NCBI GenBank assembly: GCA_015057435.1
Contig: SVEJ01000003.1
Location: forward strand, 38,393-102,392
DNA length: 64,000 bases
Reading direction: 5' to 3'
Source of the DNA: Lachnospiraceae bacterium
Lineage (GTDB): Bacteria > Bacillota > Clostridia > Lachnospirales > Lachnospiraceae
The notes below the pieces were generated by a model. The model saw only the letters and a program-made list of their open reading frames with translations, was not told the origin of the DNA and did no database searches. Positions 11,436 through 29,273 of the stretch are shown in pieces. The stretch's first letter is position 1. Every line of letters starts with the position of its first letter. The translations under genes were made by a program, and so were the position numbers.

Positions 11436-11495
11436 TTTGTATTATAATGTAGAAAAGTGATTTTTGAGGTAGGTTACGAATACGGAGGGACAAGG

Positions 11496-12491
11496 ATGTT
11501 AAATGACAAAGTGATTTTGATTACCGGGGGTACGGGTTCTTTTGGTAAGAAGTTTTTGGAAATGATTTTTCAAAAGTATAATCCAAAGAAGGTTATCATT
11601 TATTCCAGAGATGAGTACAAGCAAAGTGTTATGCAAGCAGAATATAAAGATAAGATTGATATGAGTAAGGTACGTTTCTTTATCGGAGATGTAAGAGATA
11701 AGGATCGCTTATATCGTGCGTTCGATGGCGTGGATTATGTAATTCATGCGGCAGCAATGAAACAGGTTCCTACGTGTGAATACAATCCATTTGAAGCAAT
11801 TAAGACCAATATTCATGGTGCGCAGAATATTATTGATGCAGCACTTGATCGAGGTGTGAAGAAGGTTGTGGCATTATCTACTGATAAGGCGGTGAATCCG
11901 ATTAATCTGTACGGTGGAACCAAGCTTGTATCAGATAAGTTATTTATTGCAGCAAATGCATACAGAGGCAACAATTACAATACAATTTTTTCGGTTGTTC
12001 GTTATGGTAATGTGGCAGGAAGTCGTGGTTCTGTAATCCCGATTTGGAAAAATATTATTGACCAGGGTGGTACAACATTAGGTGTGACGGATATGCGAAT
12101 GACGCGTTTTTGGATTACCTTAGAAGAAGGTGTGGAACTTGTGTTCAAAGCCTTACAGGAATCAAAAGGCGGAGAAACCTATATTTCTAAGATTCCTTCG
12201 TTCCATATTGGTGATTTGGCAAAGGCGATGTTGCCGGATTGTACGATTGATGAGTTTGGTATTCGTGAAGGAGAGAAACTCCATGAAGTAATGGTAACGA
12301 AAGATGATTCCTGGACAACCTATGAATATGACAAGCATTATATTATCTATCCGCATATGAATTGGTGTAATCTGTCGGAGAATGTACAGCCGGGAGGAAA
12401 GCTTGTAGAACCGGGATTTGAATATAATTCAGGAACCAACAAGGAATGGTTGTCCGTTGAACAATTAAGAGAAGCATTAAAAAATATTTAA
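11496..12491 (+). CDS. pseB: UDP-N-acetylglucosamine 4,6-dehydratase (inverting), PseB
   Basis: A 331-residue extended SDR enzyme. It has the NAD-binding ITGGTGSFGKKF at the N-terminus, HAAAMKQVP, and the active-site stretch ALSTDKAVNPINLYGGTKLVSDKLF. These are typical of PseB/FlaA1 dehydratases that turn UDP-GlcNAc into UDP-2-acetamido-2,6-dideoxy-L-arabino-hexos-4-ulose, step 1 of pseudaminic acid synthesis. The start at 11496 (MLNDKVILITGG) has a GGAGGGACAAGG leader; the track start at 11457 is too far upstream. The legionaminic acid dehydratase is a distant alternative, but PseC, PseG, PseH and PseI in the same island favour PseB. Confidence 0.94.
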   Translation: MLNDKVILITGGTGSFGKKFLEMIFQKYNPKKVIIYSRDEYKQSVMQAEYKDKIDMSKVRFFIGDVRDKDRLYRAFDGVDYVIHAAAMKQVPTCEYNPFEAIKTNIHGAQNIIDAALDRGVKKVVALSTDKAVNPINLYGGTKLVSDKLFIAANAYRGNNYNTIFSVVRYGNVAGSRGSVIPIWKNIIDQGGTTLGVTDMRMTRFWITLEEGVELVFKALQESKGGETYISKIPSFHIGDLAKAMLPDCTIDEFGIREGEKLHEVMVTKDDSWTTYEYDKHYIIYPHMNWCNLSENVQPGGKLVEPGFEYNSGTNKEWLSVEQLREALKNI

Positions 12492-12550: not shown

Positions 12551-13237
12551 ATGAGCCGAAAGATAGCAGTGATTACAGCCAGGGGTGGAAGTAAAAGAAT
12601 TCCCAAAAAGAATATCAAGGAATTTTGTGGTAAGCCTATATTGGCTTATTCTATTAAAGCTGCATTAGAATCAAATATATTTGATGAAGTAATGGTGTCT
12701 ACGGATAGTAGAGAAATCGCAGAAATTGCAATTGAGTACGGAGCAAATGTACCTTTTATGAGAAGTGACGAGACGGCGAATGACTATGCAACGACCAACG
12801 ATGTATTGAAAGAAGTGTTTTCAGAATATGAGAAAAAAGGACAGAAATTTGACGTGGCAGTATGTATATATCCAACGGCACCATTTATTACTGCAGAGAA
12901 ATTAAGAGAAGCGGTAGCGTTAATGGAACAAGAAGGAGTGGATGCAGTAACGCCGGTCGTTCGTTTTTCTTTTCCGCCCCAGAGGGCATTCGTTATTCGT
13001 GATGGAGCGATACAATATCAATTTCCGGAAAATGCTGTAAAGCGTTCGCAGGATTTGGAACCCATCTATCATGATTGTGGGCAGTTTTATGTAATGAGGA
13101 TTGAAAATGTAATAAATGGTGTAGGACCGAAACGGGCAGTGCCTTATATATTACCGGAGACAGAAGTCCAGGATATTGATACGCAAGAAGACTGGGAAAT
13201 AGCAGAGATGAAATATAGGATGATGAAACATGATTAG
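12551..13237 (+). CDS. pseF: CMP-pseudaminic acid cytidylyltransferase PseF
   Basis: A 228-residue nucleotidyltransferase of the NeuA/PseF family. The N-terminus holds the CTP-binding motif ITARGGSKRIPKKNIKEFCGKP, followed by VSTDSREIAEIA and the donor-site stretch CIYPTAPFITAEKL. The RFSFPPQRAFVI and HDCGQFYVM segments are PseF-like rather than NeuA-like. It activates pseudaminic acid to CMP-Pse, the Maf substrate. An ACAAGGAG SD precedes the ATG. The 3' end overlaps the next gene by 8 nt. Confidence 0.93.
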   Translation: MSRKIAVITARGGSKRIPKKNIKEFCGKPILAYSIKAALESNIFDEVMVSTDSREIAEIAIEYGANVPFMRSDETANDYATTNDVLKEVFSEYEKKGQKFDVAVCIYPTAPFITAEKLREAVALMEQEGVDAVTPVVRFSFPPQRAFVIRDGAIQYQFPENAVKRSQDLEPIYHDCGQFYVMRIENVINGVGPKRAVPYILPETEVQDIDTQEDWEIAEMKYRMMKHD

Positions 13238-13910
13238 TAAGTATGAAATAGACGGAACAAAGATATATAAATTCGTATTGGATGCGATTCGTTCTAATAT
13301 GTACATTATGATAAGACATAACGTTGCATGTATTATTGACCCTCATATCTGTGAAGAGGCAGATGCGTTGTTGAAGAGAGAGTCGATTAATAAGATATGG
13401 GTTTTGTTAACTCACGAACACTATGATCATATCTTAGGTGTTAACCATTTTAGAGAACAATATGAATGTGTTGTAATCGGAAGTGACAGTGCAAAAAAGA
13501 ATACACCATATCCGGTAAAAAATTTATCTGCCTATTACAAAGCATTGTTGATTACGCAAGATGAAGAGACAATCCACAAAGCTGAGCAGATTTTCTCGGA
13601 GGATTATAGTTGTCAGGTGGATGTTGGGTTTGATAAGGAATATGTACTTGATTTTGAGGGGATGCATCTTAAATTGATATCTACACCGGGACATTCGAAA
13701 GGTAGCATTTGTATTGTTGCAAATGATGAGTATGTATTTACTGGTGATAGTCTGGTGGATGGAAAGGAAATTATTACCAGATTACCGGGAGGTAGTAAGA
13801 AGGAATATCAAAGCATTACCAAGCCGTTTCTCGAAAGTTTATCGAAAGATACGATTGTATTTCCGGGACACGGAGAAGAAGGTGAAATAAGCCGATTTGA
13901 AATTGTATAA
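13230..13910 (+). CDS. MBL-fold metallohydrolase (glyoxalase II-like)
   Basis: A 226-residue metallo-beta-lactamase-fold protein with the complete metal-ligand set: LTHEHYDHILG (HxHxDH), TPGHSKGS, FTGDSL and FPGHGEEG. The pattern is closest to hydroxyacylglutathione-hydrolase-like thioester hydrolases. It overlaps pseF by 8 nt and precedes pseI, so it is embedded in the sugar operon. No MBL enzyme is part of the standard pseudaminic pathway. A thioesterase that edits or releases acyl groups from a carrier would fit the ACP and KAS genes nearby, but this is inference. Confidence 0.85.
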   Translation: MISKYEIDGTKIYKFVLDAIRSNMYIMIRHNVACIIDPHICEEADALLKRESINKIWVLLTHEHYDHILGVNHFREQYECVVIGSDSAKKNTPYPVKNLSAYYKALLITQDEETIHKAEQIFSEDYSCQVDVGFDKEYVLDFEGMHLKLISTPGHSKGSICIVANDEYVFTGDSLVDGKEIITRLPGGSKKEYQSITKPFLESLSKDTIVFPGHGEEGEISRFEIV

Positions 13911-13934: not shown

Positions 13935-14984
13935 GTGAATAAAGAAATATATATTGGTGACAGATTAATCAGTGATAATGCGCCGGCATATATTATTGCG
14001 GAAATGTCAGCGAATCATCTGATGGATTTTGACAGAGCAAAAAAGATCATATATGAATTAAGAGACTGCGGAATTGATGCAGTGAAGCTACAGACATATA
14101 CGGCGGATACCATTACAATCGATTGTGACAATGAGGAATTTCAACTTCACGGTGGTTTGTGGGATGGAGAGACATTGTATTCGCTTTATCAAAAGGCATA
14201 TACCCCATGGGAGTGGCAAGGAGAATTAGTAGAGTATGCGAATGATTTGGGTTTGACATGTTTCTCATCGCCCTTCGATTTAACTGCGGTTGATTTTATG
14301 GAAGAGATAGGAATGCCGGCTTATAAGGTGGCATCGTATGAAATAAATGATATCCCCCTGATTCGAAAGATTGCAAGAAAGGGTAAGCCGATTATTATTT
14401 CAACCGGTACGGCTTATCTTGAAGACATAGAAAGAGCTTTGAGAGTCTGTAAAGAAGAGGGGAATGATAATGTTATCTTGTTAAAATGCACATCGGCATA
14501 TCCATGTCCTTATGAGGATATGAATATCAACGTCATTCCGCTGATGCATCGTACGTTTGATTGTATGGTTGGTTTGTCCGATCATACATTGGGTAATGAG
14601 GTTGTGTTGGGTTCTATTGCATTAGGAGCAAGAGTAATTGAAAAGCATGTTACTTTGAAAAGAGCAGATGGTGGACCGGATGCAGCATTTTCTATGGAGA
14701 TAGAAGAATTCAAAGATATGGTGAGACAGATAAGAAATCTGGAGAAGGCACTTGGAAGAGCAACATTTGAATTGACAGAAAAACAGAAATTTGCGCGTTA
14801 CGGTACACGTTCATTATATGTCGTGAAAGATATTAAGGCAGGAGAGAAGATAACGTCTGATAATGTTCGTTCTATTCGACCGGGACTTGGTTTGCACACT
14901 ATGTATTACGAGGATGTGTTAGGTAAAGTTGCGATAAAGAATTTAAAAAAGGGAACACCGCTATCATGGAATATGATGGAATAG
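13935..14984 (+). CDS. pseI: Pseudaminic acid synthase PseI
   Basis: A 349-residue NeuB-family synthase that condenses PEP with 2,4-diacetamido-2,4,6-trideoxy-L-altrose. The barrel carries IIAEMSANHLMDFDRAKKI, AVKLQTYTADTITID, CFSSPFDLTAVDF, KVASYEIND, ISTGTAYLEDIE, KCTSAYPCP and VGLSDHTLG. The C-terminal SAF domain (about 285-349, RSLYVVKDIKAGEKIT) caps the partner active site in the dimer. PseI-like features include the TYTADTITID motif and FQLHGGLW. It begins with GTG at 13935, 8 nt after AAGGAGG. Confidence 0.95.
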   Translation: MNKEIYIGDRLISDNAPAYIIAEMSANHLMDFDRAKKIIYELRDCGIDAVKLQTYTADTITIDCDNEEFQLHGGLWDGETLYSLYQKAYTPWEWQGELVEYANDLGLTCFSSPFDLTAVDFMEEIGMPAYKVASYEINDIPLIRKIARKGKPIIISTGTAYLEDIERALRVCKEEGNDNVILLKCTSAYPCPYEDMNINVIPLMHRTFDCMVGLSDHTLGNEVVLGSIALGARVIEKHVTLKRADGGPDAAFSMEIEEFKDMVRQIRNLEKALGRATFELTEKQKFARYGTRSLYVVKDIKAGEKITSDNVRSIRPGLGLHTMYYEDVLGKVAIKNLKKGTPLSWNMME

Positions 14985-15000
14985 AAAATGTGAGGTGTGT

Positions 15001-16071
15001 ATGAAAGCAGTATTTAAGGGAAAGAAAATATCAGGAATATTAGGGATTTTGCCGGATGAAGTAAGTTACTTTGATGACGAAGTCGATAATTATGCATTTC
15101 CGCCAAAACAGACATTACGTCTCAAAAAAGTGATGGGTTTTGAAAAACACAGACTTGCAAAAGCAGATAGTACAGTTTCTGATTTTTGTATTTTTGGTTT
15201 AAAGCATTTGTTGGCAGAGGGCAAGGTTAAGAAAGAGGAGATTGGTGCAATTGTTGTAGTGACATTGTCTCCGGATTATTTTGTGCCGCATGTAAGTAAC
15301 ATTATTCATGGAGAATGTGAATTGCCGGAGGATGTACTTTGCATGGATATTGCACAAGGATGTTGTGGTTATCTGTTAGGGCTTATGCAATCTTTCATGT
15401 TGTTGGATGTATTGAAAGATAAGAAAGTTGTATTGTTTAATACGGATGTGCTAAGCCACAAAGTATCTAAGCAAGACAGGAACGATTATCCATTGATTGG
15501 AGATGCAACGAGCATTAGTGTTATAGAAAATGATGTTAATGCTGATGATATTTATTTTGAATTGCATACAAATGGCGGACAACGAAATGCTTTGATAATA
15601 CCTGCGGGTGGATTTGCTATGCCGTCTACATCAGAAACGGCTGTTATGAAAGAGATGGAGGATGGAAATCGTCGTTCGTTAGATCATCTGCATATGGACG
15701 GAGCAGAGGTTTTTAACTTTGTTCAGACGAAGATTCCGCCTATGCTCGAAGAAACATTTCAGTCGTTGAATATTCGAAAAGAAGATATAGATTATTACTT
15801 GTTCCATCAGCCGAATAAGTTTATGTTGAAAAAATTAGCGGATAAGATTGGTGTACCATACGAAAAAATGTTTATGAACGTGGTGGAGAATTTTGGTAAT
15901 CCGAGTGGAGCGTCTATACCGATGAATATAGTATACAATATAAGAAGTTTGTTGATAGATAATAACTTTACTTGCTGTTTGTCGGCGTTTGGCTCGGGAT
16001 TGACTTGGGGAATTATGGTAATGAAATTAGGTGGTTTTGATTTTTGTGATCTTATAGAATCACCATATTGA
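15001..16071 (+). CDS. 3-oxoacyl-ACP synthase III-like protein 1 (KAS III / FabH family)
   Basis: A 356-residue thiolase-fold synthase. The catalytic triad is visible: Cys in DIAQGCCGYLLG (near residue 120), His in YLFHQPNKFML and Asn in ENFGNPSGASIP. These residues support Claisen condensation of an acyl-CoA with malonyl-ACP, but the rest is diverged from FabH. It follows pseI and precedes a formyltransferase, so it is a glycan-tailoring gene and not part of a fatty acid operon. The GTG at 14995 is possible, but the ATG at 15001 with GTGAGG upstream is preferred. A second paralogue is encoded on the other strand. Confidence 0.88.
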   Translation: MKAVFKGKKISGILGILPDEVSYFDDEVDNYAFPPKQTLRLKKVMGFEKHRLAKADSTVSDFCIFGLKHLLAEGKVKKEEIGAIVVVTLSPDYFVPHVSNIIHGECELPEDVLCMDIAQGCCGYLLGLMQSFMLLDVLKDKKVVLFNTDVLSHKVSKQDRNDYPLIGDATSISVIENDVNADDIYFELHTNGGQRNALIIPAGGFAMPSTSETAVMKEMEDGNRRSLDHLHMDGAEVFNFVQTKIPPMLEETFQSLNIRKEDIDYYLFHQPNKFMLKKLADKIGVPYEKMFMNVVENFGNPSGASIPMNIVYNIRSLLIDNNFTCCLSAFGSGLTWGIMVMKLGGFDFCDLIESPY

Positions 16072-16090: not shown

Positions 16091-16963
16091 ATGCGTTTTA
16101 CAAAAGTGATTTTGGTCGGATCTGGCAAAATTGCATGTGATTGTCTAAGATACATGATAACAATAGTAGCTATTAAAGATATCGTTGTATTAGAGTCACA
16201 GAACAACCAATTGTCAATGCTTGCCAACGTGTGTAAAAAGGAAAATATAAGTTATTCTGTGTTGGAAAATAAGAAAGATATTGAACAATTTATGCTTGCA
16301 CACGTTGAGAATGAAAGAACGTTAATTGTTAGTGCAAATAACAGATTCATTTTTACGCCACAAATTATCCAAAAGGAATACGTTGAAATTATAAATTTTC
16401 ATTACGCGTTATTACCTAGGTATAGGGGGATGAATATACCCACATGGGTTATATATAACGGAGAAAAGGAAACGGGTATAACTTGGCATTTTGTAACAGA
16501 GCAAGTGGATAAAGGAAAGATAATTGCGCAACGGACTATTCCGATTAACGATATGACTAATGCGTTGGAAGTAACAAGAAAGGGAATGCTTTTAGGAATA
16601 GAAGCATTTGAGAGTTTTATAGCGGAATTGCTAGATAATAAGATGGACGGAATGGATGTATTGTATCCTGAAGAGGATGTCATTTATTATAACTCACAAT
16701 TACCGATGGCAGGTGTGATTGACTTAAATCAATCCATAGAGGATATAAGTCGTCTGCTTAGAAGTTTTGATTATGGGGGAATGAAAGTTATTCCGTATTT
16801 GCGATTGTATTACAATAATAATTGCTATGAAGTTCAAAGATATAAATTAAGAAAACTATCAACTGTAAAAAAAAGAATGATAGAATACAAAGAAGATACA
16901 GTGTTTGTGAAAGACGTGGATGGAGAGATTGAATTATATTTAAAACCATTTCGGAATGATTAA
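16091..16963 (+). CDS. Formyltransferase-family protein (sugar N-formyltransferase-like)
   Basis: A 290-residue protein with a formyltransferase core: ILVGSGKIACDCLRYM at the start, then INFHYALLPRYRGMNIPTWV (near residues 102-121, the N-x-H motif of folate-dependent formyltransferases), ITWHFVTEQVDKGKIIAQ with the catalytic Asp, and a C-terminal domain. Methionyl-tRNA formyltransferase is unlikely because of the sugar-island context. Sugar N-formyltransferases place formyl groups on amino sugars. N-formyl groups are known on nonulosonic acids. The coding region is visibly more AT-rich than pseB or pseF, which hints at a separate acquisition. Confidence 0.8.
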   Translation: MRFTKVILVGSGKIACDCLRYMITIVAIKDIVVLESQNNQLSMLANVCKKENISYSVLENKKDIEQFMLAHVENERTLIVSANNRFIFTPQIIQKEYVEIINFHYALLPRYRGMNIPTWVIYNGEKETGITWHFVTEQVDKGKIIAQRTIPINDMTNALEVTRKGMLLGIEAFESFIAELLDNKMDGMDVLYPEEDVIYYNSQLPMAGVIDLNQSIEDISRLLRSFDYGGMKVIPYLRLYYNNNCYEVQRYKLRKLSTVKKRMIEYKEDTVFVKDVDGEIELYLKPFRND

Positions 16964-17009
16964 TCATAGATGAATGTAAAAATAAATTGATATTTGGGAG
17001 ATTTCAATT

Positions 17010-17668
17010 ATGGTGGAAGATTTGAAAGGAAAAAAGGTAAGTATATGGGGAACCGGAATGGGTGGAAAAAAGATGTATACTTTTTGAAAAACCATGCCGA
17101 GATAGAATGTTTCTACGATAGCGATGAAAGAAAAAGTGGAATGTTACTATATGATGTACCAATTAGAAAATGGTCACCATTGGTAGATGTATTATATTTA
17201 TTTGTAGTAGAGGAAGATAAATCTATTTTTTCGTTTCAGCAGCGGTTATCCATGGTTCGAGAAGGGGTGAAAGAGTATAATAATGTATTGGTAATACCAA
17301 GTGGTGATTTTATGATTTCAACACTGACTTTTCCGGGATATTTCATGAAGGACAATCCTGCTAGGGCATGTTATGATACGTTTCTGGATTTGAAAATCTT
17401 CGCACATTATGTGGCGCCTGCGTTTGGTATTGAAAGTAGGTTTGTAGGATGTGAACCTTTTGATAAGGTAACAGCACAGTACAATCATGATATGAAAATT
17501 ATCTTACAGGCTCAAGGAATTATGGTGATTGAAATTCCACGAAAAGAAGTGGAAGGGCAAGTCATTAGTGCTACTGTGGTGAGGAAATTGTTAATGGATA
17601 AAGATTGGACTAAATTAGAGAGATTTGTTCCGGCATCCACGCTTGAGATTTTAAAATTAAATAAATGA
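17010..17668 (+). pseudogene. Broken nucleotidyltransferase related to [citrate lyase] ligase C-terminal domain
   Basis: Reading from the ATG at 17010 (SD TTGGGAG) gives VSIWGTGMGGKKMYTF and then TGA at 17085. One extra T in the TTTTT tract at 17081-17085 would continue it in frame as LKNHAEIECFYDSDERKSG, the frame of the track ORF at 16994. The joined product has a Rossmann-like sugar or nucleotide domain followed by the citrate-lyase-ligase-type cytidylyl/adenylyltransferase core (VLYLFVVEEDKSIFSF, VIPSGDFMISTLTFP, CEPFDKVTAQYNHDMK, ISATVVRKLL). The nucleotide-binding NPFTxGH segment expected just before VLYLFVVEEDKS is missing. Two lesions suggest a real pseudogene and not only a sequencing error. 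Confidence 0.75.
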
Positions 17669-17677
17669 TAAATGTTT

Positions 17678-17710
17678 AAAAATCCGATGAGGGAATTTCA
17701 TCGGATTTTT
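17678..17710. terminator. Bidirectional terminator between convergent operons
   Basis: AAAAATCCGATGA pairs with TCATCGGATTTTT over a 7-nt loop. It stands between the pseI-side operon (+) and the SDR-KAS-ACP-PseH operon (-). Confidence 0.93.
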
Positions 17711-17740
17711 GACATTTATATAGAACAATTATAATTGCAA

Positions 17741-18505
17741 TCAACCGAGCCCAGAACCGCCATCAGCATGTAATGCACGACCGGTAATACAAGATGAAGC
17801 GTCGCTTAATAGGAACATACAAGCATTGGCTATTTCGTAAGGGGAAGAAGCACCTAACAACTGATGTTCCAATGTCTCGTTAACGATATCATTAGAACCT
17901 GTATAATCAATGTTAAAGGCAGAATCAAACATAGGTGTTTTGACAAAGCCTGGCATTATAGTGTTAATTCGAATGTTTTTAGGAGCTAGTTCTGGAGCTA
18001 AGGACTCTATGGATGCATTCATGGCAGCTTTGGTTGCAGAATAGATAGTTTGGCATTTGCCAGGGGATACCGCAGCAATAGAAGAAATTCCTACAATACT
18101 TCCGCCATTACTATATTTCTTTTTTGAAAATAGTCGTACTAATTCTAGAAAAGCATAATAATTCACGTGCATTTGAGCATCTATTCTTTTGGACGATAGC
18201 ATTTGAATTGATTCCACACTTGATATGCCTGCACAATGTACAAGTCCATCAAGTTTTTTTCCATCCGAAACAATTGTTTTAAATTCTTCTGTTAAATCTT
18301 TGTTTTGGGAGAGGTCTACGCATATTTTTATATGGTTATTCCCCTGCATTTGTGATAAGGTATCGTTTATTTTATCCTCGTTTCGTGCAATCATAGCAAC
18401 AGTAGCTCCTTGTTTTGATAGAGCGATAGATAATGTTTGACCAATACCAGAGGATGCTCCGGTAACAAGTATTTTCTTTTCTGTAAAATCAAATGGATTA
18501 TACAT
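17741..18505 (-). CDS. SDR-family 3-oxoacyl-ACP reductase-like protein
   Basis: A 254-residue classical short-chain dehydrogenase. Cofactor site TGASSGIG near residue 16, HCAGISS (NAG-like), catalytic Ser in VGISSIAAVS and YSATKAA (YxxxK) are all present. The length and motifs fit FabG-type NAD(P)H reductases of 3-oxoacyl groups. It is the last gene of the reverse operon PseH-ACP-KASIII-SDR, with 14 nt to the KAS gene and a GGAGG SD. Following a KAS III and an ACP, the expected reaction is reduction of the new beta-keto group to a beta-hydroxyacyl group. A sugar reductase remains possible. Confidence 0.87.
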   Translation of the reverse strand: MYNPFDFTEKKILVTGASSGIGQTLSIALSKQGATVAMIARNEDKINDTLSQMQGNNHIKICVDLSQNKDLTEEFKTIVSDGKKLDGLVHCAGISSVESIQMLSSKRIDAQMHVNYYAFLELVRLFSKKKYSNGGSIVGISSIAAVSPGKCQTIYSATKAAMNASIESLAPELAPKNIRINTIMPGFVKTPMFDSAFNIDYTGSNDIVNETLEHQLLGASSPYEIANACMFLLSDASSCITGRALHADGGSGLG

Positions 18506-18519
18506 ATAGGCCTCCGTTT

Positions 18520-19617
18520 CTATTTTCCTTCATTTTGTTTTTGATGAATATGTTCCAAGAAACCTTCCTCGAAATATTCATTGGTGTGGATGATAGGTAA
18601 AATGTCATTTTTGTCAATTTCAAAAGTAGCAATACCCCAATTTAGTCCGATGCCAAAAGCAGAGGTAATAAATTTGATTCTATTAGGTACATTTTCTCTT
18701 TCACATAAATCTGCAATTGTCATTAACACGGAGGCACCATCGGTATTACCGTATCGTTCAATGGAACGTGGGACTTTTTCTTTAGGTAATTTTAGTTTCT
18801 TTTCGATATGATCAAGAATCATTTTATTTGCTTGATGAAATACAAAGTAGTCATAATTATCAGGTGAACAACGGTGTTCTTTATAAAAGTCATTGAATAA
18901 TTTTGGGACTTTTGTAATAGTAAATAAGAATACGTCGCTGCCATCCATATAGTGTCTGTACTGGTTTGTATCTAGATTATCTGCATCAAAATAAAATCTT
19001 CCATTTTCTGTTGGACCAGGAGTGATAATTGCATCATAACCGTTTCCATCAGATTTGATACTTGTTATGATATTGGAATCACCTTCTTCAATAATGCATG
19101 CTGAACAAGCATCACCAGTTAACATGGTGTCATGTGTAAGGCTAGCGTTTGAGGAAATGTTGTGATTATGAGCATCTCCGATTAAAAGCAGTGCGCGCTT
19201 AATTGCTCCGCTTTTAATCATAGAGGCGATAGTACAAATTCCTGTTGGAAGAGAAGAACAGCCTAAATTTATATCATAGACAATACAGTCGTGTTTTAAA
19301 TTTAATCTTTTGTGAAGGACATATGAAGTTGCAGGAATGATATAATCCGGAGTTTGTGTCATTAAAATGAGTGCGTCAATATCTTCGCCGGTGTAATTTT
19401 TGTGTTCCATTAATTTTTTTGCGGCTACATAACAAAGATCAGAAGCAGTCTGCTCTTTGATTGAATAACAGCGGGATTTGATTCCCGAAGTTTTGATAAA
19501 TTGATCAATTTCTTTTTGGTCAAAGTATTTACTAAAATATTGCGTGTCTACAAGGTTATCCGGAACGGCACAGGCAATCCCGCTGATTTTTACATTTTCA
19601 AATATAGTACTTGGCAT
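18520..19617 (-). CDS. 3-oxoacyl-ACP synthase III-like protein 2 (KAS III / FabH family)
   Basis: A 365-residue KAS III paralogue with the catalytic Cys in DINLGCSSLPTGI (near residue 115), His in YFVFHQANKMIL and Asn in RYGNTDGASVLM. It would form a beta-ketoacyl-ACP from an acyl-CoA and malonyl-ACP. The start at 19617 (MPSTIFENVKIS) has GGAGAAAAACT upstream; the track start at 19635 lacks this spacing. It lies between an ACP and an SDR reductase, so the operon holds carrier, condensation and reduction functions together. The gene is AT-rich. It is clearly separate from KAS III-like protein 1, with low visible identity outside the active site. Confidence 0.9.
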   Translation of the reverse strand: MPSTIFENVKISGIACAVPDNLVDTQYFSKYFDQKEIDQFIKTSGIKSRCYSIKEQTASDLCYVAAKKLMEHKNYTGEDIDALILMTQTPDYIIPATSYVLHKRLNLKHDCIVYDINLGCSSLPTGICTIASMIKSGAIKRALLLIGDAHNHNISSNASLTHDTMLTGDACSACIIEEGDSNIITSIKSDGNGYDAIITPGPTENGRFYFDADNLDTNQYRHYMDGSDVFLFTITKVPKLFNDFYKEHRCSPDNYDYFVFHQANKMILDHIEKKLKLPKEKVPRSIERYGNTDGASVLMTIADLCERENVPNRIKFITSAFGIGLNWGIATFEIDKNDILPIIHTNEYFEEGFLEHIHQKQNEGK

Positions 19618-19650
19618 AGTTTTTCTCCATTTCAATGTGATTGTATATAC

Positions 19651-19682
19651 AAAAACCGAATAGCATACGCTTATTCGGTTTT
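19651..19682 (-). terminator. Attenuator hairpin between ACP and KAS III genes
   Basis: On the minus strand AAAACCGAATA pairs with TATTCGGTTTT, followed by a T. It could give higher ACP than KAS III mRNA, a common need for a carrier protein. Confidence 0.7.
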
Positions 19683-19695
19683 CTCGTTCGTTGAA

Positions 19696-19914
19696 TTATT
19701 CCATTACGGCAATTGCGTCCTGTACAGTAACAAATGCTTTGATTTCAGAACCCTTAATTGTTTTCTCAAAGTGTTCGTCCATAGCGGCGATAAATGAGAG
19801 AATTGCAACAGAGTCCCATTCGTCAATATCTTCCAGTATGGAATCCAAAGATAAAGTTCCTTCGTCCAAATCCATGATTTCCTCTAATAAAGCAATTTTT
19901 TCTTGTTCTGACAT
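19696..19914 (-). CDS. Acyl carrier protein 1
   Basis: A 72-residue acidic four-helix carrier. The phosphopantetheine attachment Ser lies in EWDSVAILSFIAAM (DSV in place of DSL), followed by the acidic recognition helix. The C-terminal FVTVQDAIAVME is typical of modification-island ACPs rather than fatty-acid AcpP. The SD is AAGGAGG. It sits between the PseH-like N-acyltransferase and KAS III, with an attenuator after it. The expected role is to carry the acyl chain that the acyltransferase uses. The PPTase that would activate it is not in this window. Confidence 0.9.
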   Translation of the reverse strand: MSEQEKIALLEEIMDLDEGTLSLDSILEDIDEWDSVAILSFIAAMDEHFEKTIKGSEIKAFVTVQDAIAVME

Positions 19915-19970
19915 GTGAATAACCTCCTTGTTTTGTATAATAATATTTTCATATACTCTATAAAATTATA

Positions 19971-20561
19971 TCAATAGAGTACACAATTTTCAATGTTTTC
20001 TTGTTGTACAACATTATATATTAGCTTTTTGTACCACTCAGGTCGATTAAGGAAATATTCTTTTGTATATTTCACTTGATATACATCATGGTATTCCCCA
20101 TCTATACATACATGATCTTTTAAAACACCAGCAATCAAATTGCCTTTTTTGCATGTAGATATTAGTTTTTTGTTTGTATCAAGTATTTCACTGAGTTCGT
20201 AATCTGCTTTTATGATTTGAAATATAATAGATTTGATGATGTATGCAACTACTTCTCCATATCCTTCGTATTTGAAGTTTTCATTAGTTAAATAATGACT
20301 ACCTGTTACATGATTTGTTTTTCTATGTAATACATAGTGGAAGACTGCAACAGGTTCATCGTCGAAATAGATGACATACAGTCCCCGGTTAGAATCGCCC
20401 TGAATTCTTTGGATAAATGATGTATGTTCTTCGGGCGTAATAATATGTCTTGTAAAAGACATTTCTCTAACAAAATCTGCATTTCTCCATTCGCGAATTT
20501 GACCAATCGTTTTTTCGTCCAAATATTTTAATTCAACTGCTTTGAATTTCTTTTTTTCCAT
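19971..20561 (-). CDS. pseH: GNAT N-acyltransferase, PseH-like
   Basis: A 196-residue GNAT-fold enzyme. The start at 20561 (MEKKKFKAVELKYL) follows a GAGG SD; the track start at 20597 has none. Features match PseH-type transferases: REWRNADFVREMSFTRHIITPEEHTSFI at the N-terminus, YVIYFDDEPVAVFHYV for strands 4-5, and a later EGYGEVVAYIIKSIIF helix for the donor. PseH acetylates UDP-4-amino-4,6-dideoxy-AltNAc at N4. It is the only GNAT in the island, so it fills that step. It leads an operon with ACP, KAS III and SDR, so its donor may be a carrier-bound acyl group and not acetyl-CoA. Confidence 0.8.
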   Translation of the reverse strand: MEKKKFKAVELKYLDEKTIGQIREWRNADFVREMSFTRHIITPEEHTSFIQRIQGDSNRGLYVIYFDDEPVAVFHYVLHRKTNHVTGSHYLTNENFKYEGYGEVVAYIIKSIIFQIIKADYELSEILDTNKKLISTCKKGNLIAGVLKDHVCIDGEYHDVYQVKYTKEYFLNRPEWYKKLIYNVVQQENIENCVLY

Positions 20562-20603
20562 ATTTGTAACCTCGTTAGAATAGATTTGTACCATCAATTA
20601 ATT

Positions 20604-20631
20604 ATATCGGCTTTTCTATGTATAAAGTTTA
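20604..20631 (-). promoter_or_regulatory. Sigma28 promoter of PseH-ACP-KASIII-SDR operon
   Basis: On the minus strand TAAA-N16-GCCGATAT (exact -35 and -10 consensus, spacer one longer than ideal). The -10 box ends 42 nt upstream of the pseH ATG. Confidence 0.82.
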
Positions 20632-20649
20632 GATGTTTTAGGCCGATAT
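20623..20649 (+). promoter_or_regulatory. Sigma28 promoter of ACP-ligase-PseC operon
   Basis: TAAA-N15-GCCGATAT is a perfect sigma28 consensus on the plus strand. It overlaps the minus-strand sigma28 promoter by 9 bp, so the two polymerases would compete. Confidence 0.88.
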
Positions 20650-20687
20650 TTATAGTAGTAAGCTAATGCCATACTTTTTGTTTTGCG

Positions 20688-20716
20688 TTGCGAAAAGTTT
20701 AGAATAATACTATAAT
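20688..20716 (+). promoter_or_regulatory. SigmaA promoter of ACP-ligase-PseC operon
   Basis: TTGCGA, 17-nt spacer, TATAAT, 36 nt upstream of the ACP start. It would give sigma28-independent basal expression. Confidence 0.65.
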
Positions 20717-20751
20717 AAAATGGTCAGAAAAAGGTGAAGGAGAGTAGATGT

Positions 20752-20985
20752 ATGGAGCAGTTATACAGGATGTTAGAAGAATTAAGACCGGAATTTGATT
20801 TTAGAGAAGACGTTAATTATATTGAAGAAGGTATGTTGGATTCATTTGATATCATCTCGTTAGTAGACGAAATAGAAGAAAAATATTCTATTAAAATTGA
20901 TGGGTTAGATATTATTCCAGACAATTTTGAAACAATAGAGAAGATTTCTACTTTGATTGTTCGTAGCGGTGGCGTAATAGAATGA
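20752..20985 (+). CDS. Acyl carrier protein 2 (DltC-like)
   Basis: A 77-residue acidic carrier protein with the phosphopantetheine Ser in EGMLDSFDIISLVDEIEEKY. Size and the LDSFDI motif resemble D-alanyl carrier protein DltC more than AcpP. The start at 20752 (MEQLYRMLEEL) is preferred since GAAGGAG lies 9 nt upstream; the track start at 20734 is a GTG before the SD. It is followed 21 nt later by a DltA-like adenylating ligase, the natural partner. No dltB or dltD is present, so lipoteichoic acid alanylation is unlikely. Confidence 0.88.
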   Translation: MEQLYRMLEELRPEFDFREDVNYIEEGMLDSFDIISLVDEIEEKYSIKIDGLDIIPDNFETIEKISTLIVRSGGVIE

Positions 20986-21006
20986 TAATGCAGAAAGGGT
21001 ACATAT

Positions 21007-22527
21007 ATGCAAAATACAGTAATATCTTATCTTGAAAATACAGTTGGACAATATCCTGATAAGGTTGCGGTACAGGATAAGGAGAGCGCATGCACATTTG
21101 AAGAATTAAGAAAGGCGGCATTATGTATCAGCACTGCTATTTTTCGAAGAATTCAAATGACAAAACAACCGATATTTGTTTACTTACCAAAGAGTGTAAG
21201 GAGTATACAGGCATTTATGGGAGTACTTTATAGTGGTAATTTTTATACTCCGACAGACGTTAATTTTCCTTTTGAAAAAGCGAATAGTATTATTAAGTGC
21301 TTACAACCAGCTCTTATATTATCTGATACAAAGCACGCAAGTATTTTGGAGTCTAATGGAGTGGATTCAGAGCGCATATTGAATTTAGACGAGATATCAT
21401 TCGACGCAGAGAATGAGGACTTTGTCTGCACGGATATTATAGATACAGATGTGGCTTACATATTGTTTACATCTGGCTCGACAGGTGTACCGAAGGGTGT
21501 TGTGATTTCACATCGTAGTATTATCGATTATATTGATTGGGCGAAGGAATGTTTTCGCGTTAACGAGAAAGATACGATAGGTAATCAAGCTCCGTTTTAT
21601 TTTGATAATTCGACATTAGATATATATTTGATGTTGAGTACAGGAGCAACTCTTCAGATAGTACCTGAAGGTTTATTTGCATTTCCTGCGAAATTGATGG
21701 AATATGTTCGGACGATGGAGATTAATACTATTTTTTGGGTTCCTTCAGTTTTTATTAATGTAGCTAATATGGATATCTTGAGTCGAATAGATTGCTCGTG
21801 TTTGAAGAAGATTTTGTTTGCCGGGGAAGTTATGCCTAACAAGCATTTGAATTATTGGAGAAAGCATATAAAGGATGCATTATATGCCAATTTATATGGA
21901 CCGACAGAGATTACTGTCGATTGTACATACTATCTGGTGGATAGAGAATTTGCGGATGATGAACCGTTACCGATTGGTGTCCCTTGTGTGAATTCCAATG
22001 TTATGTTGTTGGATGATGAAGGAAGGCTGATAGAAGAAGCGAATGTGACAGGAGAGCTTTGTGTCAGAGGAACATCATTGGCTTTGGGATATTGGAATAA
22101 TTGGGAAAAAACCAATGAAGTTTTTGTGCAAAACCCTATGAATAAAGCATATCCGGAAAAAATATATTGTACAGGAGACTTGGCACACTATAATGAATTT
22201 GGTGAAATTATGTTTGATGGAAGAAAAGATTTTCAAATTAAACATATGGGATATCGAATAGAATTAGGCGAGATAGAAACGATGGTGTTAGGGTTAGAAG
22301 AAATCAAGGAAGCTTGCGTTTTATATGATTCCGATAACAGGGAAATTGTATTGTGTTATGTGGGATTAGAAACGGCAAACAAGCAGTATCTTAGAAGATG
22401 TTTGATGAATAAACTTCCGAAGTACATGATTCCGACAAAGTATATTCAGATGGAAGTGTTACCTAAGAATGATAATGGAAAGATAAATCGAAAAGAATTG
22501 CAGAAATGCATCATGGAAAAAGCATGA
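21007..22527 (+). CDS. DltA-like adenylating ligase (amino acid or carboxylate--carrier protein ligase)
   Basis: A 506-residue ANL-superfamily enzyme, the same length as DltA. Core motifs are intact: LFTSGSTGVPKG (A3, P-loop), NLYGPTEITVD (A5), YCTGDLAHYNEFGEIMFDGRKDFQIK (A7-A8) and NDNGKINRKEL with the catalytic Lys (A10). NQAPFYFDNSTLDIY is strongly DltA-like. It would form an acyl-adenylate, probably D-alanine, and load it onto carrier protein 2. Its place between that carrier and pseC suggests aminoacylation of an island sugar. Substrate choice is inference. Confidence 0.87.
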   Translation: MQNTVISYLENTVGQYPDKVAVQDKESACTFEELRKAALCISTAIFRRIQMTKQPIFVYLPKSVRSIQAFMGVLYSGNFYTPTDVNFPFEKANSIIKCLQPALILSDTKHASILESNGVDSERILNLDEISFDAENEDFVCTDIIDTDVAYILFTSGSTGVPKGVVISHRSIIDYIDWAKECFRVNEKDTIGNQAPFYFDNSTLDIYLMLSTGATLQIVPEGLFAFPAKLMEYVRTMEINTIFWVPSVFINVANMDILSRIDCSCLKKILFAGEVMPNKHLNYWRKHIKDALYANLYGPTEITVDCTYYLVDREFADDEPLPIGVPCVNSNVMLLDDEGRLIEEANVTGELCVRGTSLALGYWNNWEKTNEVFVQNPMNKAYPEKIYCTGDLAHYNEFGEIMFDGRKDFQIKHMGYRIELGEIETMVLGLEEIKEACVLYDSDNREIVLCYVGLETANKQYLRRCLMNKLPKYMIPTKYIQMEVLPKNDNGKINRKELQKCIMEKA

Positions 22528-22573
22528 AATGATAATGTTTTTATTTAGCAATGTGGATTCGGGGGGGTTGGTT

Positions 22574-23710
22574 ATGTTCATACCATACGGAAGACAATCA
22601 ATTAGTGAAGAAGATATACAAGAAGTAGTAAATGTATTGCGTTCTGATTATTTGACAACCGGACCGGCTGTTGCAGAGTTTGAACGTCAGGTGGCAGAAT
22701 ACGTAGGTGCAAAATATGCAGTAGCGGTTTCTAACGGAACGGCTGCGCTTCATATTGCCTGTTTGGCAGCGGGAATTGGAAAAGGCGATGAGGTAATAAC
22801 ATCGCCTATTACTTTTGCTGCCTCTGCGAACTGTGTGTTGTATTGTGGCGGCACACCGATATTTGCAGATATCAAAGAAGATACGTACAACATTGATCCG
22901 GAGGATATTGAAAGAAAAATTACACCAAGAACAAAGGCGATTATTCCAGTACATTACACAGGGCAACCTTGTGAGATGGATGCAATTAATGAAATTGCAA
23001 GAAAGCATAATCTCATTGTGATTGAAGATGGTGCACAGGTGATTAGTGGAGAATACAAGGGGCAAAAGGTCGGTTCTATTTCGGATATGACCACATTTAG
23101 TTTTCATCCTGTAAAGCCTTTGACTACAGGTGAAGGTGGAATGGTTACCACCAATAGCAAGGAGCTATATGAGAAATTAAAACTATTCCATACCCATGGA
23201 ATTACAAGAGAAGAATCATTGATGCAAGGTAATGACGGCCCTTGGTATTATGAGCAGTTGGAACTAGGATATAATTATCGTATTACAGATATCCAATGCG
23301 CACTTGGTATTTCGCAATTGAAGCGACTAGATGACTTTGCAACGCATCGCAGAATGTTAGCGGCACGATATGATAAAGGATTTGAAGGTGTTAAGAATAT
23401 TGTGACACCTTATCAACATCCGGATTGTCTAAGTAGCTATCATTTATATATGATTCAAGTACCGGCAGCTATTCGCAAGGAAGTGTTCGAAGAGCTTAGA
23501 AAAGTAGGGATTGGGGTCAATGTACATTATATTCCGGTCTACAAACATCCATATTATCAGGCAAATGGATATCAGGATGTATGCTGTCCGAATGCAGAGA
23601 AGTTCTATGCAGGAGCGATTACATTACCGTTGTTTGCTGATATGACATTAGAGCAGGTGGATTATGTGGTGGAGAAGACGATAGAAATTGTCATAAAGTT
23701 AATGGGATAG
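22574..23710 (+). CDS. pseC: UDP-4-keto-6-deoxy-sugar aminotransferase PseC
   Basis: A 378-residue DegT/DnrJ/EryC1 PLP aminotransferase. It has MFIPYGRQSISEEDIQEVVNVLRSDYLTTGP at the start, VSNGTAALHIACLAAGI, VIEDGAQVISGEYKGQKVG and the PLP Lys in TFSFHPVKPLTTGEGG. The C-terminus GVNVHYIPVYKHPYYQ is PseC-like. It aminates the PseB product at C4. The start at 22574 has a G-rich SD-like tract (GGGGGGG); the track start at 22529 adds 15 residues not seen in the family. It supplies the amine acylated by the PseH-like enzyme. Confidence 0.94.
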   Translation: MFIPYGRQSISEEDIQEVVNVLRSDYLTTGPAVAEFERQVAEYVGAKYAVAVSNGTAALHIACLAAGIGKGDEVITSPITFAASANCVLYCGGTPIFADIKEDTYNIDPEDIERKITPRTKAIIPVHYTGQPCEMDAINEIARKHNLIVIEDGAQVISGEYKGQKVGSISDMTTFSFHPVKPLTTGEGGMVTTNSKELYEKLKLFHTHGITREESLMQGNDGPWYYEQLELGYNYRITDIQCALGISQLKRLDDFATHRRMLAARYDKGFEGVKNIVTPYQHPDCLSSYHLYMIQVPAAIRKEVFEELRKVGIGVNVHYIPVYKHPYYQANGYQDVCCPNAEKFYAGAITLPLFADMTLEQVDYVVEKTIEIVIKLMG

Positions 23711-24972: not shown

Positions 24973-26007
24973 ATGAAACAGATACATATACGTGTAGATG
25001 GAAATGAAATAATAGCAACAGGACATGTGATGCGTTGTTTGTCTATTGCGGAACAGCTTCGAATATTGGGGGCACAGGTAACATTTGTGCTCGCAGATGA
25101 CAGACCGAGAGAGCTAATTGAATGTAGAGGTTTTTTGGTGGACGTGTTAGATACGGTTTGGGATGATCTTGACCAAGAGATAGATATTTTTCAGAACTAT
25201 ATCAAAGAGAATGGTGTAAAGGTTGTTTTGCTTGATTCGTACTATGTGACATCAGAATATATGCAGATGATAGCTGATGTTACGAAGCTTATCTATATTG
25301 ATGATATGGCTAGGTTTTTGTATCCTGCAAATACACTAGTTTCATATGGTGCTTTTATTGATGAGAAAGCATATAGAGCTCCTTATATGATGCAGAAGAC
25401 AGATACAACATTTTTGTTAGGAAGTCAATACGTTCCTCTTAGAGAGGAATTTTCATATATTCCTTTTGTGGTTCGCGATGAGGTAGAAAGTGTTCTTATA
25501 ACGACCGGTGGGACTGACCAACTAAATGTTGCAGGCAAACTGCTTCGCCGATTAATGAATCACACTATGTGTTGTGATTTGGATTATCATGTTATTGTTG
25601 GTTGTTTTAATCAAAACAAGGCAGAACTGTTGTCTTTGCAAGCACAATATAGCAATATTCACTTACACGAAAATGTTACCAACATGTCTGAGTGGATGCG
25701 TGCGTGTGATGTCGCAATTTCTGCAGCGGGAACAACTACTTATGAACTTTGTGCATGTGGAATACCAACGATATGCTTAGAGATTGCAGATAATCAGGAG
25801 GGTGCAGTTTGTTGGCAAGAGAAAGGCTATATGCAATATGCCGGAAATGCATATAAAGATATGGATGAATGTCTGAATAACTGTGAAGTTACATTAATAA
25901 ATTATCAATCGAACTTGGAAAAGAGGCAAACAGTGTCAAAGCGTATGCAGAGCTTGGTGGATGGAAAAGGTGCGATAAGAATTGCAGAGCACATTTTTAA
26001 TTGTTGA
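24973..26007 (+). CDS. pseG: UDP-2,4-diacetamido-2,4,6-trideoxy-L-altrose hydrolase PseG
   Basis: A 344-residue GT-B-fold hydrolase related to MurG. It contains IRVDGNEIIATGHVMRCLSIAEQL (the PseG N-terminus with G-x-GHVMRC), LLDSYYVTSEY, ITTGGTDQLNVAGKLL and VAISAAGTTTYELCACGIP. It removes UDP from the PseH product to give free 6-deoxy-AltdiNAc for PseI. The SD is TTGGAGAG. The active-site His of the family is present (GHVMR). An operon member, following the CgeB-like transferase by 23 nt. Confidence 0.94.
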   Translation: MKQIHIRVDGNEIIATGHVMRCLSIAEQLRILGAQVTFVLADDRPRELIECRGFLVDVLDTVWDDLDQEIDIFQNYIKENGVKVVLLDSYYVTSEYMQMIADVTKLIYIDDMARFLYPANTLVSYGAFIDEKAYRAPYMMQKTDTTFLLGSQYVPLREEFSYIPFVVRDEVESVLITTGGTDQLNVAGKLLRRLMNHTMCCDLDYHVIVGCFNQNKAELLSLQAQYSNIHLHENVTNMSEWMRACDVAISAAGTTTYELCACGIPTICLEIADNQEGAVCWQEKGYMQYAGNAYKDMDECLNNCEVTLINYQSNLEKRQTVSKRMQSLVDGKGAIRIAEHIFNC

Positions 26008-27614: not shown

Positions 27615-29273
27615 ATGATATTAGAAATGATCAAACACATCACCCATAACTTAATATTAGCCAACGAGACTATCCGACATTTCAGACGGCAGAATCTTCA
27701 TGCGGCGTTGGGGACTATGCAAACGCTGACCAAAGGCCTCATTACCGTTGTGCAAAGCTTTATGAATGAAGAAGAGTTGCAGGCGTATGAGTTAGACATG
27801 GATAATTTTACTGTCCTTCTATCCGGTGTAATGAATGCACAGGAAAATGAAGACTATGTATTGATTGCTGACTTATTAGAACTACAGATTATTCCGTGGC
27901 TACAACAGGTGCAGGAATTGTTGATTGCGAATGCGACATTTGGTATGGATGAAGAACAGGCCAATTACAATCTCGAAGGAATCAGAAGATGCGATGCTTC
28001 TTTGGCGGCTAAGTTAGAAACGCATGTGATGCCGCAGGAATATGTGATTGAACCGACATCATCCGGATTATTTACGTTACAGGTAACAGACGCAACAGGT
28101 TCCTATTATTTTCATTCGAATAACAACCCTGTATTGGAGGGGAAGCTTTTTGCAGAGCAGTATTATTCGATTGATTATGATCATTATGTCGTGTTTGGAT
28201 TAGGCCTTGGTTATCATATTGAGGCGCTTTTGGAGTTGGATGACGGAATTTCTGTGACGATAGTGGAGCCGGATATCAATGTGATCTGTGCGGCAGTTTG
28301 TTTTGGTGATTTGTCATGGCTGCATGATAATCCGAGAGTTCATTTATTGTATGATAAAGATTATACGAAGCTGTTGAATCTGTTAGATGAGGAGATTTCC
28401 CTGGTTATCCATAATCCGTCGCTTCGTCATGTGGCAAAGCCGGAGATTAAGATACAGTTGGAAAAATTCTTCATCAGCGACAGTGGAAAGCGAAATATGC
28501 GAATACAGTTTCAGAACAATTTCCGTGATAATGTGAAAAACTGTACAAGATATATCGATGAGATACGAGAAGAATTTGAAGGTAAAAATGCAATTATTAT
28601 AGCAGCGGGACCATCGCTTGATAAAAATGTGGAATTGCTGCGGAATAAGCCGGATGGCACAGTTGTTGTGGCGGTCGGAACGGTCTTTAGCAAATTAGTT
28701 GCATTAGATATCTTGCCGGACTATGTTGTTTTTTTGGATGCGCAACCGCGTCTTTATCAACAAATTCAAGGAATAGAAACGTGTCAGGTGCCGATTATCT
28801 GTGCATCTACAGCATGTAAGCGCATTGCGCAAATGTATCAAGGAGAAAAATTCCTGATTTGCCAGGATGGTTATGATCGTGCGGAGGAATATGCGAACCG
28901 AAATGGCTACATGCTATATAAAACCGGTGGTTCTGTATCAACCATTGCGCTTGATATGTGTATTCGACTTGGTTGCAAGGAGATTGCATTTATCGGATTA
29001 GATCTTGCTTATACAGGTAATCAGTCGCATGCAAGTGACACGGCTGATGCACACGGAACGGATGCGGATGATAAGATAGAGATTCCGGCGGTTGACGGTA
29101 AAACGGTTCTTGCCAGTCGTTTGTTTGTGATGTACAGAGAGTGGATAGAGAGACGGGTTGCAGAGGAAAAAGGCAAGGTTACAGTGATTGATGCAACGGA
29201 AGGCGGTGCGTTGAAAAAAGGTATGTCTGTTATGAAACTAGAGGATGTTTTCAAACACTGGACTATGCTATAA
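27615..29273 (+). CDS. maf: Second Maf-type flagellin glycosyltransferase (DUF115)
   Basis: A 552-residue Maf paralogue. The MptE-like core has NAIIIAAGPSLDKNVELL (near residue 320), VVAVGTVFSKLVALDILPDYVVFLDAQPRL and GGSVSTIALDMCIRLGCKEIAFIGLDLAYTG. The N-terminal 115 residues form a helical region resembling the small proteins at 9298 and 55837. It is shorter at the C-terminus than the first Maf. Start is weakly supported: the ATG at 27615 has only a distant AAAGGA, so coupling to the upstream gene 6 nt away is likely. Last glycosylation gene of the operon. Confidence 0.88.
   Translation: MILEMIKHITHNLILANETIRHFRRQNLHAALGTMQTLTKGLITVVQSFMNEEELQAYELDMDNFTVLLSGVMNAQENEDYVLIADLLELQIIPWLQQVQELLIANATFGMDEEQANYNLEGIRRCDASLAAKLETHVMPQEYVIEPTSSGLFTLQVTDATGSYYFHSNNNPVLEGKLFAEQYYSIDYDHYVVFGLGLGYHIEALLELDDGISVTIVEPDINVICAAVCFGDLSWLHDNPRVHLLYDKDYTKLLNLLDEEISLVIHNPSLRHVAKPEIKIQLEKFFISDSGKRNMRIQFQNNFRDNVKNCTRYIDEIREEFEGKNAIIIAAGPSLDKNVELLRNKPDGTVVVAVGTVFSKLVALDILPDYVVFLDAQPRLYQQIQGIETCQVPIICASTACKRIAQMYQGEKFLICQDGYDRAEEYANRNGYMLYKTGGSVSTIALDMCIRLGCKEIAFIGLDLAYTGNQSHASDTADAHGTDADDKIEIPAVDGKTVLASRLFVMYREWIERRVAEEKGKVTVIDATEGGALKKGMSVMKLEDVFKHWTML

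Follow-up and report, generated by a model that had tools for sequence, protein, structure and literature searches.

This study concerns a 64,000-nucleotide stretch of a Lachnospiraceae genome (contig SVEJ01000003.1, hereafter the window; GC content 38%) that carries a flagellin gene, two Maf-like genes and a complete pathway for pseudaminic acid (Pse), together with genes for the assembly of an acyl chain (Table 1). The latter encode two acyl carrier proteins (ACP-a and ACP-b), two β-ketoacyl synthases of class III (KAS III; KAS-a and KAS-b), a short-chain dehydrogenase/reductase (SDR), a stand-alone amino-acid adenylation domain, an N-formyltransferase and a PseH-like N-acyltransferase (GNAT). 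The best explanation overall, which we place just on the probable side of even, is that these genes make an amino-acid-primed, N-formylated hydroxyacyl chain that replaces the usual acetyl group on N7 of flagellin Pse. The delivery of a carrier-bound hydroxyacyl group to Pse, comprising the reduction, the GNAT transfer and the steps completing Pse, appears likely; the amino-acid-primed, formylated nature of the chain is an even call. The most favored reading is that the nonulosonic acid receives a hydroxylated acyl group from a carrier, because the sole PseH-like GNAT is linked to an ACP, the KAS III enzymes and the SDR keep their catalytic residues, and a sigma-28-type promoter is present. 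An amino-acid-derived, formylated chain is pointed to because the formyltransferase and the adenylation domain form a conserved module with a second carrier and a second KAS III.

The carrier-linked acyltransferase and its cassette

A preliminary description of this DNA had reported a minus-strand operon in the order PseH-like GNAT, ACP, KAS III, SDR and another KAS III behind pseI, and all of these genes were found in their places (20597-17741 and 14995-16071). The span it had drawn, 17741-23710, also holds ACP-a, the adenylation domain and pseC on the plus strand, which its reasoning left out, and ends short of the formyltransferase at 16091-16963; the module is larger than was noted. The genome-neighbourhood check that it had suggested was positive, as the GNAT-ACP-KAS-SDR set recurs beside pse genes in four other genomes of the genus (G002, G009, G010, where an extra SDR lies between, and G020), making five with the window, and the grouping is therefore not due to chance. 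Gene calls in these and all other relatives are mechanical open reading frames (ORFs) assigned to window proteins by BLAST, and many of the relatives are metagenome-assembled genomes (MAGs) whose labels may be wrong. The cassette proteins of the genus relatives are only 30-58% identical to those of the window, yet the set is kept. Outside the genus set, KAS-a and KAS-b were found in none of 76 Pse loci sampled from the family via PseI. One record titled as a Bacteroidales MAG (L051, JAMPFJ010000011.1) has the same genes as contig C2 of G009, a member of the window's genus, and its label or binning is probably wrong.

Because the cassette lies on the same strand as the remaining genes in G009, G010 and G002, where both halves of the gene set form one run, the opposite-strand arrangement of the window looks like an inversion. 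A search for inverted repeats flanking 17741-20597 recovered only short AT-rich, chance-like pairs, and an invertible cassette was rejected, this flanking-repeat search having given no evidence of phase inversion.

The GNAT is the only PseH-like gene in the genome. Its best and only NCBIfam match is TIGR03585 (PseH), at 65.7 bits below the cut-off of 93.1, and the top fold match of its structural model (pLDDT 89.9) is Helicobacter pylori PseH (PDB 4ri1, E 2.9e-13). It adjoins ACP-b in all five genus genomes. In a tree of 32 PseH-like GNATs encoded near pse genes, which has long branches, all 12 ACP-adjacent enzymes fell inside a single group of 15 rows (support 92/90), and the window GNAT grouped with its four genus relatives (98/92). 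Mapped onto this tree, ACP adjacency required 4 changes compared with 10.0 in shuffles, none of 500 shuffles being as low. This clustering and adjacency bear out in part the earlier proposal that the enzyme uses a carrier-bound acyl group, and support, short of proof, an acyl-ACP donor, the GNAT being a putative acyl-ACP:UDP-4-amino-sugar N-acyltransferase. Loss of the P-loop was considered as proof of ACP use and rejected, the loop being retained. In G010, an ordinary acetyl-CoA-type GNAT (L037, 8895-9365) stands directly before the ACP-type GNAT, and the two may compete or act on different substrates.

Two kinds of locus make up the ACP-linked GNAT group, one KAS-fed (this genus) and the other fed by a protein with a haloacid dehalogenase (HAD) domain. 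The second was seen in L142, L143 (6956-9387), L159, L162 and L196, in which a protein of about 545 amino acids with an acid-phosphatase/HAD-like middle is accompanied by an ACP, a PseH-like GNAT and pseI. These HAD-middle proteins look like an FkbH-type loader, and such loci perhaps encode a glyceroyl-Pse route as in Campylobacter jejuni.

The enzymes that would build and reduce the chain are conserved at their active sites. The Cys123, His271 and Asn302 residues of KAS-a were invariant, also across Bacteroidota, Helicobacter and Paenibacillus, as were Cys126, His267 and Asn297 of KAS-b. Decarboxylating condensing enzymes use this Cys-His-Asn triad, and, since it is kept, known KAS III chemistry argues for carbon-carbon bond formation. 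Both proteins scored below the housekeeping FabH cut-off (TIGR00747, 292 bits), with 149.9 and 168.7 bits, the best NCBIfam match of KAS-a being PRK12880; a separate housekeeping FabH is encoded on contig C5, so that the two dedicated KAS III are additional to it. The SDR retains its Ser-Tyr-Lys residues and TGxxxGxG motif, and the phosphopantetheine serine is kept in both carriers.

A predicted sigma-28-type promoter ties the gene set to flagella. The sigma-28 (FliA/SigD) consensus is TAAAGTTT-N11-GCCGATAT, and an exact site lies inside the 136-base gap between the divergent operons. When up to three mismatches were allowed, three matches were found in the window, the second best just before the flagellin gene, and a looser pattern (TAAA-N14-16-CCGATAW) matched once, with 0.25 expected. 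Similar sites precede pseF in G009 and a flagellin gene in G010 and G002.

The adenylation-domain module in other genomes

The stand-alone adenylation domain scored 324.8 bits against TIGR01733 (cut-off 317.4). Equivalents of Asp235, which binds the alpha-amino group, and of the catalytic Lys517 were present in 72 of 72 adenylation domains, including that of the window. The adenylation codes fell into few discrete types, namely DIFWWALLDK (24), DNLWLALVDK (21, including the window), DMLWLGMGTK (5) and DIQWMGVVNK (4), and because of the tryptophans in the code the substrate is probably small. Identity of the domain and its carrier with DltA and DltC was rejected on the equivalog cut-offs (312.7 against 559.9 bits for DltA, 31.4 against 68 bits for DltC).

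An alignment of KAS-a scanned against 84,980 species genomes gave 207 confirmed relatives, of which the best-scoring 80, not a random sample, were studied. Within 6 kb of KAS-a, ACP-a was found in 77 of the 80 loci, the adenylation domain in 75, ACP-b in 64, the SDR in 53 and KAS-b in 24, and several loci that miss core genes near KAS-a are short contigs. The usual companions were of two kinds, formyltransferases (24 genes) and double-GNAT proteins (55 genes); 68% of the former and 75% of the latter touched a core gene, compared with 6% of unclassified neighbours, and 16 of the 21 genes located between two core genes belonged to one of these two types. The orders adenylation domain-formyltransferase-ACP-a-KAS-a and adenylation domain-double-GNAT-ACP-a-KAS-a were each observed in both Bacillota and Bacteroidota. 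The simplest account of this slot is that its occupants would cap the amine of a carrier-bound amino acid.

The catalytic triad of the formyltransferases (Asn102, His104, Asp140) was invariant. In their tree, which has long branches, the window enzyme fell inside a clade from KAS modules (support 100/99) that includes one sequence from Helicobacter labetoulli, and the formyltransferases of Pse loci without KAS-a (L163, L180, L208) formed a separate clade (100/100). The match to PseJ (PDB 6ci2) was 153 bits for the L180 protein, the only one tested of its clade, and 31 bits for the window enzyme, and on both grounds identity of the latter with PseJ was rejected. Because of its clade membership and weak PseJ match, the window formyltransferase probably goes with the acyl module and not with the sugar. 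The PseJ-like formyltransferases themselves fill the PseH position in their Pse operons (L163, 10537-11124; L180, 10375-11010; L208, from 7136), predicting N-formyl Pse as the product there.

The last sugar acyltransferase varies by locus, being a PseH-like GNAT in this genus and a PglD-like left-handed helix protein (LbH) in 29 others. An acyl-CoA carboxyltransferase, likely the source of a malonyl-type extender, was found in 11 KAS-a loci; in the window such a gene is located at 30213-31757, downstream of the flagellin-glycan genes, and could supply malonyl or methylmalonyl units. In 23 KAS-a loci the gene behind the SDR encodes an AAC(3)-like protein (e.g., L053, 9129-9983; L060, 6487-7347), which by context is not a resistance protein. 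Marine Bacteroidota isolates (L106, L110, L118, L120, L130) have a minimal adenylation domain-ACP-a-KAS-a-ACP-b module, usually then an LbH gene, and no reductase. Their products could be ring-type acyl groups such as hydroxy-oxoprolines, which are known from marine polysaccharides. As a wider and more tentative proposal, to which we give somewhat less than even odds, a widely shared module of stand-alone adenylation domain, two carriers, KAS III, formyl- or acetyl-capping enzyme and optional ketoreductase would make amino-acid-primed, polyketide-like chains. Bacteria of several phyla would fit these to one surface sugar or another by exchanging no more than the final N-acyltransferase, the window being the case of Pse on flagellin.

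Proposed pathway and competing explanations

In the proposed pathway, a flagellum-regulated gene set would put a carrier-built acyl chain on the C4 amine of UDP-4-amino-4,6-dideoxy-AltNAc, which becomes the N7 substituent of Pse. The adenylation domain, with Asp235 and Lys517 in place, would activate an alpha-amino acid and load it onto ACP-a, and the formyltransferase, judging by its slot and clade, would formylate the amine of the carrier-bound amino acid in the manner of the LgrA formylation domain. KAS-a, whose triad is intact, would then take this starter on its cysteine and condense it with malonyl-ACP-b, after which the SDR, with its catalytic residues present, would turn the ketone into a hydroxyl. 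KAS-b, together with the SDR, may extend the chain by a further two carbons, or may start one from acetyl-CoA. The finished chain would be taken off ACP-b by the PseH-like GNAT, as its clade and adjacency suggest, and PseG, PseI, PseF and Maf, by their family assignments, would complete CMP-Pse and glycosylate flagellin.

Several observations weigh against this pathway. The GNAT retains its GxG loop and could still bind acyl-CoA. The nearest solved relatives of the window formyltransferase act on nucleotide-sugars (PDB 5vys, 73 bits). The marine modules L106 and L110 are without an SDR, and their KAS-a might be a transacylase or the maker of an unreduced ketone. The AAC(3)-like (Antibiotic_NAT) proteins of the 23 module loci have no account in the proposal. 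Finally, G020 (L047) has a GNAT-ACP-KAS-SDR-KAS set without KAS-a or an adenylation domain, and the two halves can therefore act apart.

The last of these observations also favors the main rival, which we regard as unlikely yet the one most to be reckoned with. Here ACP-b would carry 3-hydroxybutyryl, or 3,5-dihydroxyhexanoyl with two KAS III, built by KAS III and the SDR out of acetyl-CoA plus malonyl units, and the GNAT would transfer it, the adenylation domain, ACP-a and formyltransferase serving another modification. Precedents exist in Pseudomonas syringae, where vioS/acp/vioR/vioB makes N-3-hydroxybutyryl viosamine that is lost in a vioR mutant (PMC3927599), and in Flavobacterium psychrophilum, where two KAS, an ACP, an SDR and an acyltransferase have been assigned to a 3,5-dihydroxyhexanoyl group (PMC6519341), and the two halves do lie on opposite strands in the window. 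They form one same-strand run in G009, G010 and G002, however, KAS-a has the adenylation domain and ACP-a near it in 75-77 of the 80 loci, and no other amine or acceptor for the adenylation half is evident in the window. The preliminary description had itself named 3-hydroxybutyryl from acetyl and malonyl units as the example, and that version falls short in giving no role to the formyltransferase, the adenylation domain, the second carrier and the second KAS III.

Hydroxybutyryl-alanyl amino sugars are known and provide the model for a second, rather improbable alternative, in which the amino acid is a linker: the amine of aminoacyl-ACP-a would receive either a formyl group or the 3-hydroxyacyl group of ACP-b, and the N-acyl-aminoacyl unit would then pass to the sugar. 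The formyl- and acetyltransferases adjoining the adenylation domain and ACP-a would fit such aminoacyl capping, and SDR-less modules need no ketone reduction. Yet the sugar acyltransferase adjoins ACP-b and not ACP-a in all five genus genomes, the same GNAT group adjoins an ACP with a HAD-domain loader in other Pse loci, and the conserved Cys-His-Asn triads favor carbon-carbon condensation.

Less probable again, at a level we consider low, is that the formyltransferase acts on the sugar amine like PseJ and the hydroxyacyl chain goes to the other nitrogen. The O-antigen and pilin of P. aeruginosa carry Pse5(3-hydroxybutyryl)7Fo, the best PDB relatives of the enzyme are sugar formyltransferases, and PseJ is present in other Pse loci of the family. 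Against this, the PseJ scores given above set the window enzyme apart, it groups with KAS-module formyltransferases from loci of other sugars and other phyla, and a chain on N5 would require removal of the GlcNAc acetyl group, for which profile annotation of the cluster gave no deacetylase family. It is very improbable that the acyl genes work for some other lipid or small molecule and just happen to neighbor the Pse operon: KAS-a modules do occur in many non-Pse surface-glycan loci, but the linkage to pse genes recurs in the genus despite changed gene orders, the promoter is of the sigma-28 type, the sole PseH-like gene is part of the cassette, housekeeping FabH is separate, and elsewhere the module again adjoins sugar N-acyltransferases (LbH in 29 loci).

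Pse on flagellin is usually depicted as diacetylated. If the proposed amino-acid-primed, formylated chain is correct, the flagellin of some gut and rumen Lachnospiraceae bears a hybrid amino-acid/polyketide acyl group produced on an assembly line of its own, and phages and host receptors would meet a changed surface. The same reading would account for a gene set seen in numerous surface-glycan loci across Bacillota, Bacteroidota and Campylobacterota, and would offer a genome-readable rule by which the N-acyl groups on nonulosonic acids and on other amino sugars could be predicted.

Gene inventory and known systems

In profile searches of the window proteins, pseB, pseF, pseI, pseC and pseG each scored above the curated cut-off. 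Alignments and ribosome-binding sites place the likely true starts of four genes a few codons inside their ORFs (GNAT, ATG 20561; KAS-b, ATG 19617; ACP-a, ATG 20752; KAS-a, ATG 15001). A metallo-β-lactamase (MBL)-fold hydrolase precedes pseI, and MBL genes were found near KAS-a in 24 of the 80 loci; it may be an editing thioesterase that clears stalled carriers. The CitC-like ORF behind the formyltransferase gene was rejected as an ACP acetylase, the NPFTxGH motif being missing. A Rossmann-like start (IWGTGMGG) can be read in another frame, with which the first residues of the ORF appear to be out of register, and another Pse locus has a full-length relative that carries NPFTLGH (L147, 297-1820); gene decay or a faulty assembly probably accounts for the ORF.

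Table 1. Genes and regulatory features of the flagellin-glycan region, in window coordinates.
Feature	Position	Strand	Remarks
Sigma-28-type promoter before flagellin	8241-8267	+	2 mismatches
Flagellin	8366-9187	+	76-89% identical to flagellins adjoining the same module in G010 and G002
Maf/PseD-like flagellin Pse transferase	9561-11435	+	NF050051 112 bits, below cut-off
pseB	11457-12491	+	TIGR03589 526 bits, cut-off 408
pseF, CMP-Pse synthetase	12551-13237	+	TIGR03584 288 bits, cut-off 206
MBL-fold hydrolase, glyoxalase-II-like	13230-13910	+	
pseI, Pse synthase	13935-14984	+	TIGR03586 478 bits, cut-off 340
KAS-a, KAS III of adenylation-domain module	14995-16071	+	directly behind pseI; Cys123-His271-Asn302
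N-formyltransferase	16091-16963	+	PF00551; Asn102-His104-Asp140
CitC-like fragment	16994-17668	+	without NPFTxGH motif
Hairpin terminator between convergent genes	17676-17712	none	17 pairs, strong
SDR ketoreductase	17741-18505	-	Ser142-Tyr155-Lys159
KAS-b, KAS III	18520-19635	-	Cys126-His267-Asn297
ACP-b, carrier	19696-19914	-	Ser35
PseH-like GNAT	19971-20597	-	TIGR03585 match and PseH fold
Second -10-like element	20611-20604	-	GCCGATAT
Sigma-28-type promoter	20623-20649	+	TAAAGTTT-N11-GCCGATAT exact, 16 bases
ACP-a, DltC-like carrier	20734-20985	+	partner of adenylation domain
Stand-alone amino-acid adenylation domain	21007-22527	+	TIGR01733; code DNLWLALVDK
pseC, aminotransferase	22529-23710	+	TIGR03588 505 bits
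pseG, UDP-sugar hydrolase	24973-26007	+	TIGR03590 199.5 bits; sole copy in genome
Second Maf/PseD-like transferase	27615-29273		NF050051 85 bits, below cut-off

As far as found, the principle of acyl-chain modules for sugars is known and the version with an amino-acid loader and formyl capping is apparently new. The earlier statement that no such operon had been described in Firmicutes held in the open-access literature searched, though the general principle has been published for other sugars. No description of the amino-acid-loading, formyl-capped version was found in that literature, a comparison that leaves aside its likeliest prior example, the Cj1299-Cj1308 region of the C. jejuni flagellin locus, where ACPs, a KAS III and an enzyme that activates an amino acid may lie next to Pse genes. 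C. jejuni carries a di-O-methylglyceroyl Pse (PMC3068675), and a 2026 survey of Clostridium Pse flagellin loci makes no mention of acyl carriers, adenylation or formylation (PMC13317340).

A close functional parallel is the P. syringae viosamine island, in which a KAS III, an ACP, a ketoreductase and an acyltransferase produce an N-3-hydroxybutyryl sugar on flagellin, as supported by the vioR mutant (PMC3927599); the preliminary description had pointed to ACP, KAS III and reductase genes in Pseudomonas flagellin glycosylation islands. Like vioS, acp, vioR and vioB, the window combines these functions in a flagellin glycan locus, but the sugar of the island is viosamine and not Pse, and its seven named genes include neither an adenylation domain nor a second carrier or KAS III. 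The wfpC-wfpG genes of F. psychrophilum likewise provide two KAS, an ACP, a ketoreductase and an acyltransferase for a polyketide-like N-acyl group; they differ in serving Qui4N of lipopolysaccharide, in their PglD-type transferase, and in that no amino-acid loader or formyltransferase was reported (PMC6519341). The Aeromonas group II (PMC7874193) and enterobacterial (PMC4875605) islands share an ACP, a ketoreductase and an AMP-dependent ligase with the window, in Aeromonas between pse genes, but their published gene lists include luxC/luxE and lack a KAS III.

Among the individual enzymes, the PseH proteins of H. pylori (4ri1) and C. jejuni (4xpk) have the same fold and pathway position as the window GNAT, yet known PseH is an acetyl-CoA enzyme, whereas the window GNAT is 18% identical, has a C-terminal extension and adjoins an ACP. 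PseJ is likewise a formyltransferase of Pse loci, the window enzyme belonging to another clade. The LgrA initiation module formylates a carrier-bound amino acid, the chemistry proposed for the window, but does so with formylation, adenylation and carrier domains on one peptide-synthetase polypeptide, whereas in the window separate proteins would feed a KAS III.

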